Shown here: in pieces, positions 2,069-7,537 of the stretch
How the letters are laid out: each line of letters starts with the position of its first letter
How positions within the stretch are numbered: position 1 is the first letter of the stretch
From: Anseongella ginsenosidimutans
Lineage (GTDB): Bacteria > Bacteroidota > Bacteroidia > Sphingobacteriales > Sphingobacteriaceae
Direction of reading: 5' to 3'
Assembly (NCBI RefSeq): GCF_008033235.1
Contig: NZ_CP042432.1
Coordinates: 3,286,001-3,350,000 of the forward strand
DNA length: 64,000 nt
Position numbers and translations under genes: made by a program
Notes under the pieces: generated by a model
Databases searched by the model: none
What the model saw: only the letters and a program-made list of their open reading frames with translations
What the model was told of the DNA's origin: nothing

Positions 2069-3595
2069 ATGATAAACACATCCAAAAAAGCAGTTCTTAT
2101 TATTCTTGATGGTTGGGGTTACGGAAGAAACGATAATTCCAATGCAATCTTTAAAGCGAATACTCCTTTTTTCGATCAATTAATAGCAAATTACCCCAAT
2201 TCCCGGCTTCAGGCTTCCGGCGAAGCAGTAGGCCTGCCCGAAGGCCAGATGGGAAACTCAGAAGTAGGGCATCTCAACATCGGGGCGGGAAGAGTGGTTT
2301 ACCAGGAGCTGGTGCGGATCAATAAAGCGATCCGGGAGAAACAGCTTGACGAGAATGCCGTTTTACTCGATACCATCCGTTACGTCAAGGAAAGCGGGAA
2401 AAAGCTTCACCTGATAGGATTGGTTTCTGACGGGGGCGTTCACTCCCATATCGATCACCTGAAAGGCCTGCTTACGATTCTGAAAAATCACGAACTGAGC
2501 CAGGTATATATACATGCTTTTACCGACGGCAGGGATACCGATCCCAAATCAGGAGCAGGCTTTATCCGGGAGCTGCGCGAGCATATTAAGATCAGCACGG
2601 GCACGCTGGCGTCGGCCATCGGGAGGTATTATTCCATGGACAGGGACAACCGCTGGGAGCGGGTAAAACTCGCTTATGACCTCCTGGTAAAAGGCGAAGG
2701 GCGGGCAGTCGAATGCATACAAAAAGGGGTAGAAGCCTCTTATGAAGAAGGAATAACGGACGAGTTTTTAAAGCCTGTTTATAAGGTGGACGAAAATGGC
2801 AACCCCCGCGCAACCATCGAAGACGGCGATGCCGTTATCTGTTTTAACTTCCGTACCGATCGCGGAAGGGAGATTACCAGGGCCCTCACCCAGGAAGATT
2901 TTCCCGACCAGGACATGAAAAAGCTGAATCTGCATTACGTGACCCTGACGCGCTATGACAATACCTTCAAGGGAGTGAAAGTGATCTACGAAAAAGACGA
3001 CCTTAAAATGACATTGGGCGAAGTGCTGGAAAATGCCGGGAAAAAGCAGATCAGGATTGCGGAAACTGAAAAGTACCCTCATGTTACTTTCTTTTTCTCC
3101 GGAGGCCGGGAAAAGGAATTCGAGGGTGAGAAACGCCTGCTTGTCCCTTCGCCCAAGGTAGCCACCTATGATCTTCAGCCGGAAATGAGCGCCGAAAAAA
3201 TCACGGAAGCCATCCTTCCTGAACTGGAGAACGAAACCGCTGACTTCGTGTGCCTTAACTTTGCCAATACCGACATGGTAGGTCATACCGGGGTATTCGG
3301 GGCGGTTATCCAGGCAGCGGAAACGGTTGACCACTGCACGGAAAAGATCGTAAAAGCAGGCATGGCTCATGGTTATTCCTTCGTGATCATTGCCGACCAT
3401 GGAAACGCCGATTACATGGTCAATGACGACGGATCACCGAATACGGCCCATTCCACCAACCTGGTTCCCTGTATAGTGATAGACGAACAGGTGACCTCGG
3501 TTAAAGACGGAAAGTTAGGGGATGTAGCGCCGACTATTTTAAAACTCATCGGACTGGAGCAACCTGCTGCTATGACTGGAGAAGCGCTGGTTTAA
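2069..3595 (+). CDS. gpmI: 2,3-bisphosphoglycerate-independent phosphoglycerate mutase
   Basis: Cofactor-independent glycolytic mutase that interconverts 3- and 2-phosphoglycerate using two manganese ions. At 508 residues it has the standard length. The alkaline-phosphatase-like core opens with LIILDGWG (metal ligand Asp14). The catalytic Ser64 lies in MGNSEVGH, followed by the substrate-binding DGGVHSHIDH and YSMDRDNRWERV motifs. C-terminal metal ligands lie in NFANTDMVGHTG and IADHGNADYM. The ATG sits right behind a -7 promoter box. A small lipoprotein gene follows after 27 bp and may share the transcript. Confidence 0.97.
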   Translation: MINTSKKAVLIILDGWGYGRNDNSNAIFKANTPFFDQLIANYPNSRLQASGEAVGLPEGQMGNSEVGHLNIGAGRVVYQELVRINKAIREKQLDENAVLLDTIRYVKESGKKLHLIGLVSDGGVHSHIDHLKGLLTILKNHELSQVYIHAFTDGRDTDPKSGAGFIRELREHIKISTGTLASAIGRYYSMDRDNRWERVKLAYDLLVKGEGRAVECIQKGVEASYEEGITDEFLKPVYKVDENGNPRATIEDGDAVICFNFRTDRGREITRALTQEDFPDQDMKKLNLHYVTLTRYDNTFKGVKVIYEKDDLKMTLGEVLENAGKKQIRIAETEKYPHVTFFFSGGREKEFEGEKRLLVPSPKVATYDLQPEMSAEKITEAILPELENETADFVCLNFANTDMVGHTGVFGAVIQAAETVDHCTEKIVKAGMAHGYSFVIIADHGNADYMVNDDGSPNTAHSTNLVPCIVIDEQVTSVKDGKLGDVAPTILKLIGLEQPAAMTGEALV

Positions 3596-3622: not shown

Positions 3623-4150
3623 TTGAATATCCGGCTGATTTTCATTCTTCTGGGCGTTATTTTATGGGGATGTGAGCGAACTCCTCCCCCGCCGGAGAGC
3701 GCCGGCTCCTATTTCAGCCTTGACAACTATTTCGGAAAGGAAATAGAACGGCTGAATTTAAAGCAGCCCCTGGTAGAAAAAACGGTTAAAAAAAACGACC
3801 AGCAGGAAAAGCGATCCCTGAAAGAGCTGGACTGGGCCGTGGAGCTTAAAGCCTTTAAAAGTTCAGATATCAATAAGCCGGCATGGCGAAACAGCTATTC
3901 CGCCGATTCCACAGAAGGCAGCGTGGTTTACACAGCCACGGAAGACGGGCTCCGGGTCCGGACCATCCGCATCCGCCAAAATCCGGAAGGCAGGATCCTT
4001 TCGATTGTCATAGAACGGGCGGAAGAGAATTACCTGTACACCTCCAATGAACTTCTGAAATACTATCCTGATTCTCTCTATTTTATTGAACGACATCAAA
4101 AAGTCCGGGTTCTCGGGCCGGACGCGTTCCAGGTAAGCGGAAGATTTTAA
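3623..4150 (+). CDS. Small lipoprotein of unknown function
   Basis: A 175-residue protein with a lipoprotein signal: after a TTG start, NIRLIFILLGVILWGC gives a lipobox L-W-G-C at Cys17, followed by a Pro-rich ERTPPPP linker. The mature part is mixed alpha/beta in appearance and highly charged, with a Lys-rich stretch (KTVKKNDQQEKR), and ends in VLGPDAFQVSGRF. I recognise no enzymatic motif. TTG is the only start that keeps the signal peptide whole. Its position 27 bp after gpmI suggests co-transcription, but glycolysis gives no obvious clue to function. Confidence 0.7.
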   Translation: MNIRLIFILLGVILWGCERTPPPPESAGSYFSLDNYFGKEIERLNLKQPLVEKTVKKNDQQEKRSLKELDWAVELKAFKSSDINKPAWRNSYSADSTEGSVVYTATEDGLRVRTIRIRQNPEGRILSIVIERAEENYLYTSNELLKYYPDSLYFIERHQKVRVLGPDAFQVSGRF

Positions 4151-4295: not shown

Positions 4296-5294
4296 TTGAA
4301 TAAGTTCCATCGCATTACTATTTCGGGAGGAGGAAGCTGGGCAACTGCTTTAACAAAGATCTTTGCGGAAAGCGGCGTGCATGTTTGCTGGCACCTGCGC
4401 TCCGATGCTCACGTAGAACAGATCCGGGAAAAAGGAAGAAACCCCAATTACCTGAGCTACCTGGAGCTTCCCATGGAGAATATCCATCCCGTATCAGATT
4501 TTGAAGAAGCAGCCCGGGCGGCCGATCATATCCTGTTTGCAATTCCATCCGCTTACCTGGAAGCAAGTCTTGGCAAAACCGATCCGGAACTGCTGCAGGA
4601 TAAAAAAGTGATCGTGTCCATTAAGGGCGTTGTCACTAGCGATAATCTCCTGCCTACCGATTATTTAAGCCAGCGTTTCCAGCTGGAAGATTCCAGCCTG
4701 GCAGTGATCGGAGGCCCCTGCCATGCGGAAGAAATTGCCATGGAAAGAAAAACGTATGTGACTGTTGCTTCGCGAAACAATGAACTCGCCGAAACGGTCG
4801 CCGGTTCCATCACCTCGCATTACATCCGGACGGTCATCAATAACGATCCCCTGGGGGTAGAATATTCAGCCATTCTAAAAAACGTGATCGGCATAGCCTG
4901 CGGTATTGCCCACGGGCTTAACTACGGAGATAACTTCCAGGCGGTGATCGTGTCCAATGCCTTACGGGAAATCAAACATTTCCTGGAAATTATGCATCCG
5001 CTGGAACGGGATTTGTCGCAATCAGCTTATTTCGGCGACTTGCTGGTTACGGCCTATTCGGAGTTCAGCCGCAACCGTACGTTCGGGCATATGATAGGGC
5101 GCGGATATACCGTGCAGCTGGCGCATATGCAAATGAACATGGTGGCCGAGGGCTATTTCGCCGTAAAGGGAATTTACGATATGTCCAGGCAAATCGGGCT
5201 GGAAATGCCTCTTGTATCTGCGGTTTACCGCATACTTTATAATCATATATCTCCATACATCGAATTCAAGTTGCTGGAGAATAAACTTATTTGA
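4296..5294 (+). CDS. gpsA: Glycerol-3-phosphate dehydrogenase [NAD(P)+]
   Basis: Cytoplasmic enzyme reducing dihydroxyacetone phosphate to sn-glycerol-3-phosphate. At 332 residues it has normal length. The nucleotide-binding loop is GGGSWATAL (11-19), slightly different from the usual GAGSWGTAL. GGPCHAEEIA (139-148) and the catalytic Lys195 in ILKNVIGIACG are present. The start is TTG; no ATG lies near the proper N-terminus. Its stop almost touches the next gene, a glucosylglycerol-phosphate-synthase-like fusion whose acceptor would be the product of this enzyme. That arrangement suggests a role in osmolyte synthesis besides phospholipid supply. Confidence 0.95.
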   Translation: MNKFHRITISGGGSWATALTKIFAESGVHVCWHLRSDAHVEQIREKGRNPNYLSYLELPMENIHPVSDFEEAARAADHILFAIPSAYLEASLGKTDPELLQDKKVIVSIKGVVTSDNLLPTDYLSQRFQLEDSSLAVIGGPCHAEEIAMERKTYVTVASRNNELAETVAGSITSHYIRTVINNDPLGVEYSAILKNVIGIACGIAHGLNYGDNFQAVIVSNALREIKHFLEIMHPLERDLSQSAYFGDLLVTAYSEFSRNRTFGHMIGRGYTVQLAHMQMNMVAEGYFAVKGIYDMSRQIGLEMPLVSAVYRILYNHISPYIEFKLLENKLI

Positions 5295-5296
5295 CA

Positions 5297-7537
5297 ATGT
5301 TACTTGCAACCGATCTGGACGGCACCTTTCTCGGCGGGAAAAGTGTCGACAAATTAAAACTATACCGTCTTATCAGGGACAATGAAGATATCAGGCTGGC
5401 TTTTGTCACCGGCCGCGGCGTGGAGAGTGTACTTCCGCTTCTCAATGATTCCCTGATCCCGAATCCCGACTATATCATCTCGGATGTGGGGGCTACCCTG
5501 CTGAACGGCCGTACGCTCGAACCCATAGAACCCATCCAATCCCTTATCGAAAAGAAATGGCCGGGAAAGCTGCTTTTCCGGAAAAAACTACGGAAGGTCA
5601 AAGGCCTTACCTACCAGGAAGTGCCCCAGCAGCGGCGCTGTTCCTTTTATTACGAAGACAACCTGGCCCTGGACGAAGTAAAGAAACTCGCCGCAGAATA
5701 CGAATGCGACGTATTGTTATCGGCCGGAAAATACCTGGACATTCTTCCGGGCGGCATCAATAAGGGGCATACGCTAAAGCAGCTGGTTAAAATGATGGGT
5801 TTTCCCGAAGACCAGGTACTGGTTGCCGGCGATACCATGAACGACCTTTCCCTTTACGAAACCGGTTACAAGGGAGTCGTTGTGGGGGCGGCCGAAAAAG
5901 CCCTAAGCCAGTCTACATCCGGGAAGGAAAATGTGTATCAGGCCAAAAGTCCCGGCGCCGGTGGAATATTGGAAGCCATGCAGCACTTTTCCGAATTCAA
6001 GTCATTCTACCGGGAGCCTGAGCGTGTCCCGGTAACAAAAGCCCACGGCGAGGAAACGCAGCTGCTGATGGTTTATCATCGCCTGCCTTATGAAAAGCGG
6101 GAAATAAACGGGCAGGTAAAGCGCGTCCCTCCCAAGAGCCCCAACGGCATTATTCCTTCCTTGCTTGGATTTTTCGAGGACGGGCGTTCCGGCGCCTGGA
6201 TTGCCTGGGAAGAACATAGCCGCAAACAGCCTGTCGGGAGTACAAAAAACTACATTGATGAAGAGAAGTATCCCAACCTGATCGCTTCAGCCGTTCCGCT
6301 GGGGAAAAAGGATATTGATATATTTTATAAGGTATTCTCAAAGGAAGCCTTCTGGCCGGTCATTTTCTCGTTCATTGACAAGGCAAAGTTCAACCACGAT
6401 CATTGGGAAACCTACCTGAAGGTCAACCGCCTCTTTGCCGAACGGGTAGCCGAGGAAGCCGACCACGAGGCGCTGGTCTGGATCCACGAATACAACCTCT
6501 GGATGGTGCCGGGATACCTGCGGGCCCTGCGGCCGGATCTCAAGATCGGCTTCTTTCATCATACCGCCTTCCCCCCGGCCGATATTTTTAATATAATACC
6601 CTGGCGAAGGGATATCATCGGCAGCCTGCTGCAATGCGACTTCCTGAGCTTCCATATCCCGCGCTATATCGAAAATTTCGTGGACGTGGTAAAAAGCCAT
6701 GCCCCCGTAACGGTCCACTCCCAGGTAAACGCCGCCAGCCAGTTCCTTACTTACAGCTGTGCGCTGGGGATTGATAAAATGACCAAGGAAATTGAAGTAG
6801 CCGGTAAAAAGATCCGCCTTGGAGCCCAGCCTGTCGGCGTGAACGTAGCGAATATAAAACGCATTTACCAGGAAGATAAAACGCAGAAGCAGATTGCCGA
6901 ACTTTTAAAACGAACGAAGGGAAAACGCATTATTCTTTCCATTGAGCGCCTGGACTACGTGAAAGGCCCGCTGGAAAAGATCCGCGCTTTCGCTGAGTTT
7001 CTCGAAGAGTACCCGGAGTTCCACGGAAAGATCGAACTCATTAATATATGCACCCCGCCGGCACAGGGGATGAAGATCTATGACAAGATACAGGTAGAAC
7101 TCGATCAGGCGATCGGAAAGATAAACGGCCGTTATTCCAGCCTTGAATGGACGCCCATCCGTTATTTCTTCCGTTCCGTCCCTTTCGAGGAGGTCATCAC
7201 TTATTACGCCATCGCCGATGTGGCCTGGATCACACCTCTCCGGGACGGGCTCAACCTGGTGGCCAAGGAATATATTGCCGTACAGGGGCAGAAGGAAAAA
7301 CCCTCCGGCGCATTGGTATTGTCAGAATTTGCGGGCGCTTCGGTGGAACTTCCCTATGCCATCCTGACCAATCCTTACGATAGCAAAAACCTGAAAGAAA
7401 CGCTTCTTCACGCGCTTACCATGGACGAAAACGAACGGTCCCTGCGCATGGAACGGCTTTACGAAACGGTAAGCTATTATGACGTGCAGCGCTGGGGAAA
7501 GGAATTTATGGAAGAATTGGAGAAGGCAGTTCAATAA
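5297..7537 (+). CDS. HAD phosphatase-GT20 glucosyltransferase fusion, probable glucosylglycerol-phosphate synthase/phosphatase
   Basis: A 746-residue two-domain enzyme. Residues 1 to about 240 form a HAD phosphatase of the sucrose/trehalose-phosphate phosphatase type: DLDGT with Asp6 and Asp8 at the start, and GDTMNDLSLY near its end. Residues from about 250 form a GT20 glucosyltransferase. The GT20 part resembles cyanobacterial glucosylglycerol-phosphate synthase more than OtsA: KSPNGIIPSL (~280), SKEAFWP (~348), HEYNLWMVPG (~397), FFHHTAFP (~419), ERLDYVKG (~550) and PLRDGLNLVAKEY (~647). Such an enzyme would join glucose from ADP-glucose to glycerol-3-phosphate and then remove the phosphate to yield glucosylglycerol. 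I chose the ATG two bases after the gpsA stop over a TTG overlapping it. Trehalose-6-phosphate synthase is the alternative. Confidence 0.85.
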   Translation: MLLATDLDGTFLGGKSVDKLKLYRLIRDNEDIRLAFVTGRGVESVLPLLNDSLIPNPDYIISDVGATLLNGRTLEPIEPIQSLIEKKWPGKLLFRKKLRKVKGLTYQEVPQQRRCSFYYEDNLALDEVKKLAAEYECDVLLSAGKYLDILPGGINKGHTLKQLVKMMGFPEDQVLVAGDTMNDLSLYETGYKGVVVGAAEKALSQSTSGKENVYQAKSPGAGGILEAMQHFSEFKSFYREPERVPVTKAHGEETQLLMVYHRLPYEKREINGQVKRVPPKSPNGIIPSLLGFFEDGRSGAWIAWEEHSRKQPVGSTKNYIDEEKYPNLIASAVPLGKKDIDIFYKVFSKEAFWPVIFSFIDKAKFNHDHWETYLKVNRLFAERVAEEADHEALVWIHEYNLWMVPGYLRALRPDLKIGFFHHTAFPPADIFNIIPWRRDIIGSLLQCDFLSFHIPRYIENFVDVVKSHAPVTVHSQVNAASQFLTYSCALGIDKMTKEIEVAGKKIRLGAQPVGVNVANIKRIYQEDKTQKQIAELLKRTKGKRIILSIERLDYVKGPLEKIRAFAEFLEEYPEFHGKIELINICTPPAQGMKIYDKIQVELDQAIGKINGRYSSLEWTPIRYFFRSVPFEEVITYYAIADVAWITPLRDGLNLVAKEYIAVQGQKEKPSGALVLSEFAGASVELPYAILTNPYDSKNLKETLLHALTMDENERSLRMERLYETVSYYDVQRWGKEFMEELEKAVQ

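Follow-up and report, generated by a model that had tools for sequence, protein, structure and literature searches.

Glucosylglycerol (GG) is a known protectant against salt and drought in cyanobacteria and some proteobacteria. Enzymes in which the phosphatase and the synthase of GG formation are fused (GgpPS) are known in Stenotrophomonas rhizophila, Azotobacter vinelandii, Pseudomonas mendocina and Marinobacter (PMC10873239). In Synechocystis, GG synthesis is described as strictly ADP-glucose dependent (PMC8168540), and ggpS is co-localized with gghA in various cyanobacteria, according to a figure that also includes glpD, glpK and gpsA among its gene symbols (PMC6753628). We report here a related locus in a stretch of 64,000 nucleotides, hereafter the window, from Anseongella ginsenosidimutans, a soil-type member of the Sphingobacteriaceae in the phylum Bacteroidota (assembly GCF_008033235.1, contig NZ_CP042432.1, positions 3,286,001 to 3,350,000, forward strand). 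In this locus gpsA, encoding a glycerol-3-phosphate dehydrogenase, directly precedes ggpPS, encoding a fusion of a HAD phosphatase with a GT20 glucosyltransferase. Judged from their sequences, the two genes very probably form an operon for GG synthesis with a dedicated supply of the acceptor. GgpPS is already known as an enzyme type; what is new is the Bacteroidota operon with its own, old second GpsA.

In the proposed pathway, GpsA would convert dihydroxyacetone phosphate to sn-glycerol-3-phosphate, to which the GT20 domain would add a glucosyl unit taken from a nucleotide sugar. The HAD part of the fusion would then dephosphorylate the GG-phosphate formed, yielding GG, a compatible solute with a possible role in osmotic or desiccation stress. 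A dedicated, anciently diverged GpsA paralogue would be retained with ggpPS and should thereby supply the GG acceptor without taxing the other GpsA, the presumed source for phospholipids. A preliminary description of this locus had proposed both the enzyme and its functional pairing with gpsA. Both frames lie where it had placed them (Table 1), its four quoted motifs (KSPNGIIPSL, SKEAFWP, HEYNLWMVPG and FFHHTAFP) are all present in the ggpPS translation, and its interpretation is supported at the level of sequence comparison.

Identity of the Synthase and Phosphatase Domains

The GT20 domain exceeds the cut-off of the NCBIfam equivalog TIGR02398 for GG-phosphate synthase (638.3 bits versus 569, over model positions 1–482 of 487) and stays below those of the OtsA models TIGR02400 (419.6 versus 564.85) and PRK14501 (457.3 versus 634). 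The other GT20 protein of the genome (L002, C1:626204-627589) passes both OtsA cut-offs (PRK14501, 677 versus 634; TIGR02400, 581 versus 564.85). In a tree of 75 GT20 sequences, obtained by a quick search with a long-branch warning and with its GgpS side defined by TIGR02398 and annotation, 30 OtsA-type proteins, including Escherichia coli OtsA, were separated from 45 of the GgpS/GgpPS type by a branch with a Shimodaira-Hasegawa-like approximate likelihood ratio (SH-aLRT) support of 100. The preliminary description had called the domain more GgpS-like than OtsA-like and had made this claim depend on phylogeny; the domain indeed fell outside OtsA. All 29 Bacteroidota fusions formed one group (support 100), joined by 12 fusions from Betaproteobacteria, Campylobacterota and others (support 92), and alphaproteobacterial GgpS, a Nevskiaceae fusion and an actinobacterial protein branched further out in an unsupported order.

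The acceptor pocket, which the preliminary description had also singled out, gives a similar picture. The residues of E. coli OtsA that bind glucose-6-phosphate include Arg9, Trp40, Tyr76, Trp85 and Arg300 (PMC1769515). In an alignment of 84 GgpS/GgpPS sequences (62 from Bacteroidota, 20 other and 2 alphaproteobacterial) with 29 of the OtsA type, the Arg300 site is occupied by Ala, Ser or Asn in all 84, with Ala589 in the window protein (numbering from the ATG at 5297), versus Arg in all 29, and the His132 site by Asn in 84/84 versus His or Gln in 29/29. Arg9, Tyr76 and Trp85 are conserved in the GgpS/GgpPS sequences, one of which is gapped at Arg9. No site could be assigned to Trp40, since tryptophan occurs at 39 and 42 in full-length E. 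coli OtsA; the former site is Trp in 84/84 and the latter is Glu in 32 of the 62 Bacteroidota sequences. The donor-site residues Gly22, His154, Arg262, Lys267, Asp361 and Glu369 are retained, and the Asp130 site holds Glu in 42 of the 62 Bacteroidota GgpPS (Glu398 in the window) and Asp in the remaining 20, in the 22 other GgpS/GgpPS and in all 29 OtsA-type sequences.

By Pfam, the fusion consists of PF05116 (residues 2–231) and the GT20 family PF00982 (residues 256–742). The phosphatase residues D6, D8, T38, K156, D179 and D183 are present in the window protein and invariant in 36/36 aligned GgpPS fusions, and the roles of such residues in HAD enzymes have been described (PMC1769515). This match with intact motifs supports the earlier prediction that the N-terminal domain would act as a GG-phosphate phosphatase. 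An AlphaFold2 model of the fusion (mean predicted local distance difference test score, pLDDT, 85.6; predicted template modeling score, pTM, 0.73) resembles trehalose-6-phosphate synthases in its C-terminal part (5jio, Z 42.1, 465 residues aligned, 2.5 Å) and the Synechocystis sucrose-phosphatase 1s2o in its N-terminal part (Z 27.6, 231 aligned, 2.9 Å).

A relative of GgpPS that takes a different phosphorylated acceptor, for example 3-phosphoglycerate, and whose product is not GG, would agree with the identity of only 42–43% between the window GT20 domain and two alphaproteobacterial GgpS, with the distinctive change that much of the clade shows at the Asp130 site and with the lack of any assayed clade member among the reports found. 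We consider it unlikely, given the score over an equivalog cut-off and the GpsA that is kept beside the synthase and has co-diverged with it (see below), which points to glycerol-3-phosphate as the acceptor. That the fusion is a trehalose-phosphate synthase/phosphatase of the OtsA-OtsB type, with an odd domain order and using glucose-6-phosphate, is hardly credible and was rejected: the GT20 family is shared and the best solved relatives by sequence and fold are trehalose-6-phosphate synthases, but the OtsA cut-offs are missed where TIGR02398 is passed, the domain lies outside OtsA with Arg300 replaced, the genome already holds an OtsA-model GT20, and the phosphatase is of the sucrose-phosphatase type, with no separate OtsB model among its matches.

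Spread of the Fusion and its Linkage to gpsA

The TIGR02398 cut-off was passed in 2 of 395 sampled genomes of the phylum, that of the window among the two, and in 61 of 399 genomes of the window's family (its own included). The latter carry 62 loci, with frames of 746–798 amino acids and, in one of them (G624), a stop codon within the ggpPS match. A scan of GTDB returned at least 573 relatives, the best 80 of which are biased toward the window's clade. Of these, 60 are Bacteroidota loci, from Sphingobacteriaceae, Chitinophagaceae and a few members without a placement, and the remaining 20 belong to other or unnamed phyla. Many of the 60 are close kin, and the locus numbers given here should not be taken as numbers of events. 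Among these 80, the nearest named relative of the window ggpPS comes from a metagenome-assembled genome titled Anseongella ginsenosidimutans (L067, 91% over GT20). Fusions from other genera (L089, L127 and L140), as well as L004 and L038, also exceed the TIGR02398 cut-off. The Bacteroidota version with gpsA to which the preliminary description had drawn attention is thus present, but the fusion is not confined to this genome and is widespread in two Bacteroidota families. On a Kitasatospora plasmid, a HAD-GT20 protein (L066:3899-6133) falls under both the GgpS and the OtsA cut-offs and has Glu at the Arg300 site, and further full-length matches were seen on Streptomyces plasmids; proteins of the L066 type perhaps represent a separate HAD-GT20 group.

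Directly upstream of ggpPS and on the same strand, gpsA was found in 44 of the 62 family loci. It is also directly upstream in 33 of the 60 named Bacteroidota loci, within 3–19 bases in 30 of the 33; the 33 include L105, where gpsA looks truncated, and the spacing is 252–262 bases in L115 and L105. No other gene is a frequent neighbor in the 60 loci, the next families occurring in 8. Adjacent gpsA was seen in none of the 20 loci of other or unnamed phyla, although two of these, L135 and L143, come with almost no sequence upstream. With about 1.5 kb searched to either side of the match, it was likewise absent from all 29 loci of the OtsA type.

The number of gpsA copies follows this linkage. 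The genome of the window has a second gpsA elsewhere (L033), presumably the housekeeping copy feeding phospholipids. Two copies were counted in 41 of the 43 family genomes with a linked gpsA; the other two are G760, with three (after merging two pieces), and G750, which is 85% complete, with one. A single copy was counted in all 18 family genomes with unlinked ggpPS and, among 58 genomes hand-picked from the 338 of 399 without a match over the cut-off, in 57, the last having none. Outside the family, in 23 genomes covering 23 of 24 loci, two or three copies accompany a linked gpsA (8/8) and one copy an unlinked ggpPS (15/15). Taken together, at least two copies are present in 50 of 51 linked genomes, exactly one in 33/33 unlinked genomes and at most one in 58/58 genomes lacking ggpPS.

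The two kinds of GpsA are also distinct by phylogeny. In trees of a chosen subset, labeled as linked or housekeeping from gene position only, one branch with an SH-aLRT support of 100 divides 26 linked from 48 unlinked copies with either of two outgroups, and the unlinked copies split by bacterial family. In ten genomes, the linked copy shares 35–47% identity with the unlinked copy of the same genome. Distances between pairs of linked GpsA correlate with those of the GT20 domain (r 0.94 over 33 loci), and in the ten genomes the correlation with GT20 distances is 0.89 for the linked GpsA versus 0.56 for the other. At E. coli position 152, Thr in 26/26 linked copies stands against Ser in 48/48 unlinked ones, and Pro at position 120, found in 26/26 linked copies, is absent from the common residues of the unlinked rows. 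The feedback site of GpsA, which we assume to lie near E. coli position 255, carries no change specific to linked copies: residues 252, 255 and 258–260 are identical in both groups, giving no sign of desensitization there. We read the linked GpsA as an old duplicate, absent from some lineages, that would have travelled with ggpPS.

The pairing with gpsA noted in the preliminary description goes beyond chance, since copy number, tree split and co-divergence show a second, diverged GpsA following ggpPS. That the adjoining gpsA is an ordinary phospholipid gene in an incidental position has next to no chance and was rejected, for although a frame that looks plsY-like by eye is located at a distance of 3.2 kb (455-1090) and would encode a user of glycerol-3-phosphate, it is on the minus strand with other genes between, and the second gpsA of the genome, the copy-number pattern, the fully supported branch and the unique frequency of gpsA among ggpPS neighbors all speak against it. 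As a separate observation, the linked gpsA looks truncated or fragmented in L105:4267-5004 and G760:C205:154775-155181, in line with an occasional loss of the linked copy.

Contrary Observations and the Glucose Donor

Several observations weigh against a GG operon that provides its own acceptor. Placement of the clade rests on a family model rather than on the sequences of the assayed enzymes of Stenotrophomonas, Azotobacter, Marinobacter and Synechocystis. No biochemical or physiological report was found for any member of the Bacteroidota GgpPS clade, and a literature search, mainly outside subscription journals, returned no title or abstract opening on GG synthesis in Bacteroidota or on a dedicated GpsA. 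The pairing with gpsA is dispensable for function, as 27 of the 60 named Bacteroidota loci and 20/20 of the others lack a gpsA immediately next to the fusion gene. Rooting of the GpsA tree also gives opposite results with the two outgroups. Two alphaproteobacterial sequences join the linked copies, so that the unlinked ones form a clade, to which 15 linked rows are then nearer (support 90); E. coli GpsA, on a very long branch, joins the unlinked copies, so that the linked ones form the clade. Finally, no GlgC over the cut-off is encoded in the window's genome, which is a single contig and 99.67% complete; the best match reaches 52.5 versus 424.9 bits.

ADP-glucose may thus be unavailable in Anseongella and, given the strict dependence described for Synechocystis, another donor or a missed source of ADP-glucose must be assumed. 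Among the 61 family genomes bearing ggpPS, a GlgC match of at least 411 bits is present in 56 and one over the cut-off of 424.9 in 35; the five that stay below 411 bits are both genomes of the window's genus (G000 and G401), G597, G732 (90% complete) and G750. A PF01704 search for a source of UDP-glucose gave no match in the window's genome and none in control genomes either, and is thus uninformative. Four PF00483 proteins (L147 to L150) are encoded in this genome; of the three scanned, L147 is RmlA by cut-off and L148 and L150 matched no NCBIfam equivalog over cut-off, so that no source of UDP-glucose was located by these searches.

A broader scenario, which we put forward tentatively and regard as possible but doubtful, is that Sphingobacteriaceae and Chitinophagaceae inherited an ancient GG module, whose own GpsA would have become specialized from the phospholipid enzyme, for example by losing the feedback inhibition that glycerol-3-phosphate exerts. 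Anseongella and other lineages lacking GlgC would then have switched from ADP-glucose to another donor, e.g., UDP-glucose, the Asp130-to-Glu change being one candidate trace.

If the GG operon is real, two large Bacteroidota families would join the likely GG makers, and the linked GpsA would be an exceptionally clear example of a duplicated housekeeping enzyme that stays with a single solute pathway. This predicts that the supply of the acceptor, besides the synthase, is a controlled step. The absence of GlgC makes the question of the donor directly testable, and GG production in ADP-glucose-poor hosts would profit from a GgpPS that accepts some other donor, combined with a dedicated GpsA.

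Layout of the Locus

The features of the locus are collected in Table 1. The likely ATG of ggpPS lies 2 bases past the gpsA stop, an in-frame TTG being also present at 5291. Both domains of GpsA score over their Pfam cut-offs (PF01210, 112 bits; PF07479, 150 bits).

Table 1. Features of the gpsA-ggpPS locus, by position in the window, and channel genes at other ggpPS loci, by locus.
Feature	Position or loci	Strand	Details and basis
gpsA, NAD(P)H-dependent glycerol-3-phosphate dehydrogenase	4296..5294	+	TTG start, 332 amino acids; PF01210 and PF07479
ggpPS, predicted phosphatase-glucosylglycerol-phosphate synthase fusion	5297..7537	+	746 amino acids; TIGR02398 638 bits versus cut-off 569
HAD phosphatase domain, sucrose-phosphatase type, residues 1-235	5297..6001	+	PF05116, invariant residues, 1s2o fold match
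GT20 domain, predicted glucosylglycerol-phosphate synthase, residues 255-744	6059..7528	+	TIGR02398 over residues 259-743; tree
Ala589, equivalent of OtsA Arg300 (glucose-6-phosphate binding, E. coli OtsA)	7061..7063	+	Alignment; role from PMC1769515
Glu398, equivalent of OtsA Asp130 (donor binding)	6488..6490	+	Alignment
MscS-type channel gene downstream of ggpPS	L131, L137, L132, L130, L127, L119, L004		
MscS-type channel gene divergent to ggpPS	L096, L100-L104, L126, L108		
MscS-type channel gene upstream of ggpPS	L079, L138		

Upstream of gpsA, after a gap of 145 bases, two frames lie on the same strand, which we take by eye to be lipoprotein-like (3623-4150) and gpmI-like (2069-3595). A pattern scan listed no terminator-like site in this gap, the counts of both the promoter and the terminator scans of the window being at chance level. 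The claim that gpsA is the only other gene of the operon consequently holds in the comparative sense that it is the only frequent neighbor of ggpPS, but is unproven for the window itself, with these same-strand frames upstream and no terminator listed before gpsA. At the other end, a convergent frame on the minus strand (8876-7506) shares 32 bases (7506-7537) with the 3' end of ggpPS.

Osmotic Context

Genes for MscS-type channels, detected with a profile built here, lie near ggpPS in 23 of the 80 named loci (16/60 Bacteroidota and 7/20 others), and nine proteins beside ggpPS, eight from these 23 loci and one from L004, were MscS-type by Pfam. For background, such genes were counted in 14 hand-picked family genomes, at least one of which (G002) was known in advance to carry a channel gene next to ggpPS. 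They total 75, or roughly 1.1 per Mb given rounded genome sizes, and in 5 of the 14 genomes one of them adjoins the ggpPS locus. A channel gene is also found beside 5 of the 29 OtsA-type loci. Because the profile was seeded with some of the same genes and the loci are related, the association is a tendency rather than a test; it fits a solute that is made in the cell and vented on down-shock. In the window's genome, five MscS-type matches are all away from ggpPS, and five channel sequences from other loci had no relative in the window.

In two Massilia loci (L131 and L137), the ATG of the channel gene overlaps the stop of ggpPS. Frames of 1120 and 1150 amino acids at these loci raised the possibility of a three-domain GgpPS-channel fusion, which was rejected as Pfam finds the channel only and ggpPS is in a different frame; we take these long frames to be a by-product of high G+C.

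Comparison with Known Systems

The window synthase shares with OtsA the GT20 fold and the donor-site residues Arg262, Lys267, Asp361 and Glu369, but OtsA has Arg300, lies on the other side of the tree and has curated cut-offs that the window domain does not reach. The same two reactions are expected as for GgpS and GgpP of Synechocystis (PMC6753628, PMC8168540), which differ in being two separate proteins and in their dependence on ADP-glucose, the window's genome having no GlgC over the cut-off.

The same three functions in the same order, gpsA, HAD and ggpS, are found on a plasmid of the alphaproteobacterium Dinoroseobacter shibae according to its RefSeq annotation, but there HAD and GT20 are separate genes and the identity over GT20 is 42%. 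Similarly, a plasmid of Tistrella, another alphaproteobacterium, has gpsA, phosphatase and synthase in this order by similarity, and a stop inside the phosphatase-synthase stretch suggests separate genes. The GpsA of D. shibae is far from the linked copies of Bacteroidota, so that the pairing may have arisen independently; the GpsA of D. shibae and that of Tistrella are too distant to tell one origin of the pairing from two.

In architecture, the window fusion resembles the proteobacterial GgpPS, in which the phosphatase likewise precedes the synthase within a single chain (PMC10873239). These enzymes are set beside the window fusion by description only, and the available portions of the reports mention no gpsA partner. 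Their neighborhoods differ from that of the window: a GG phosphorylase gene lies downstream in Marinobacter (PMC10873239), and ycaD, a gene of the major facilitator superfamily, accompanies the fusion in S. rhizophila (PMC7404187, PMC4390839).

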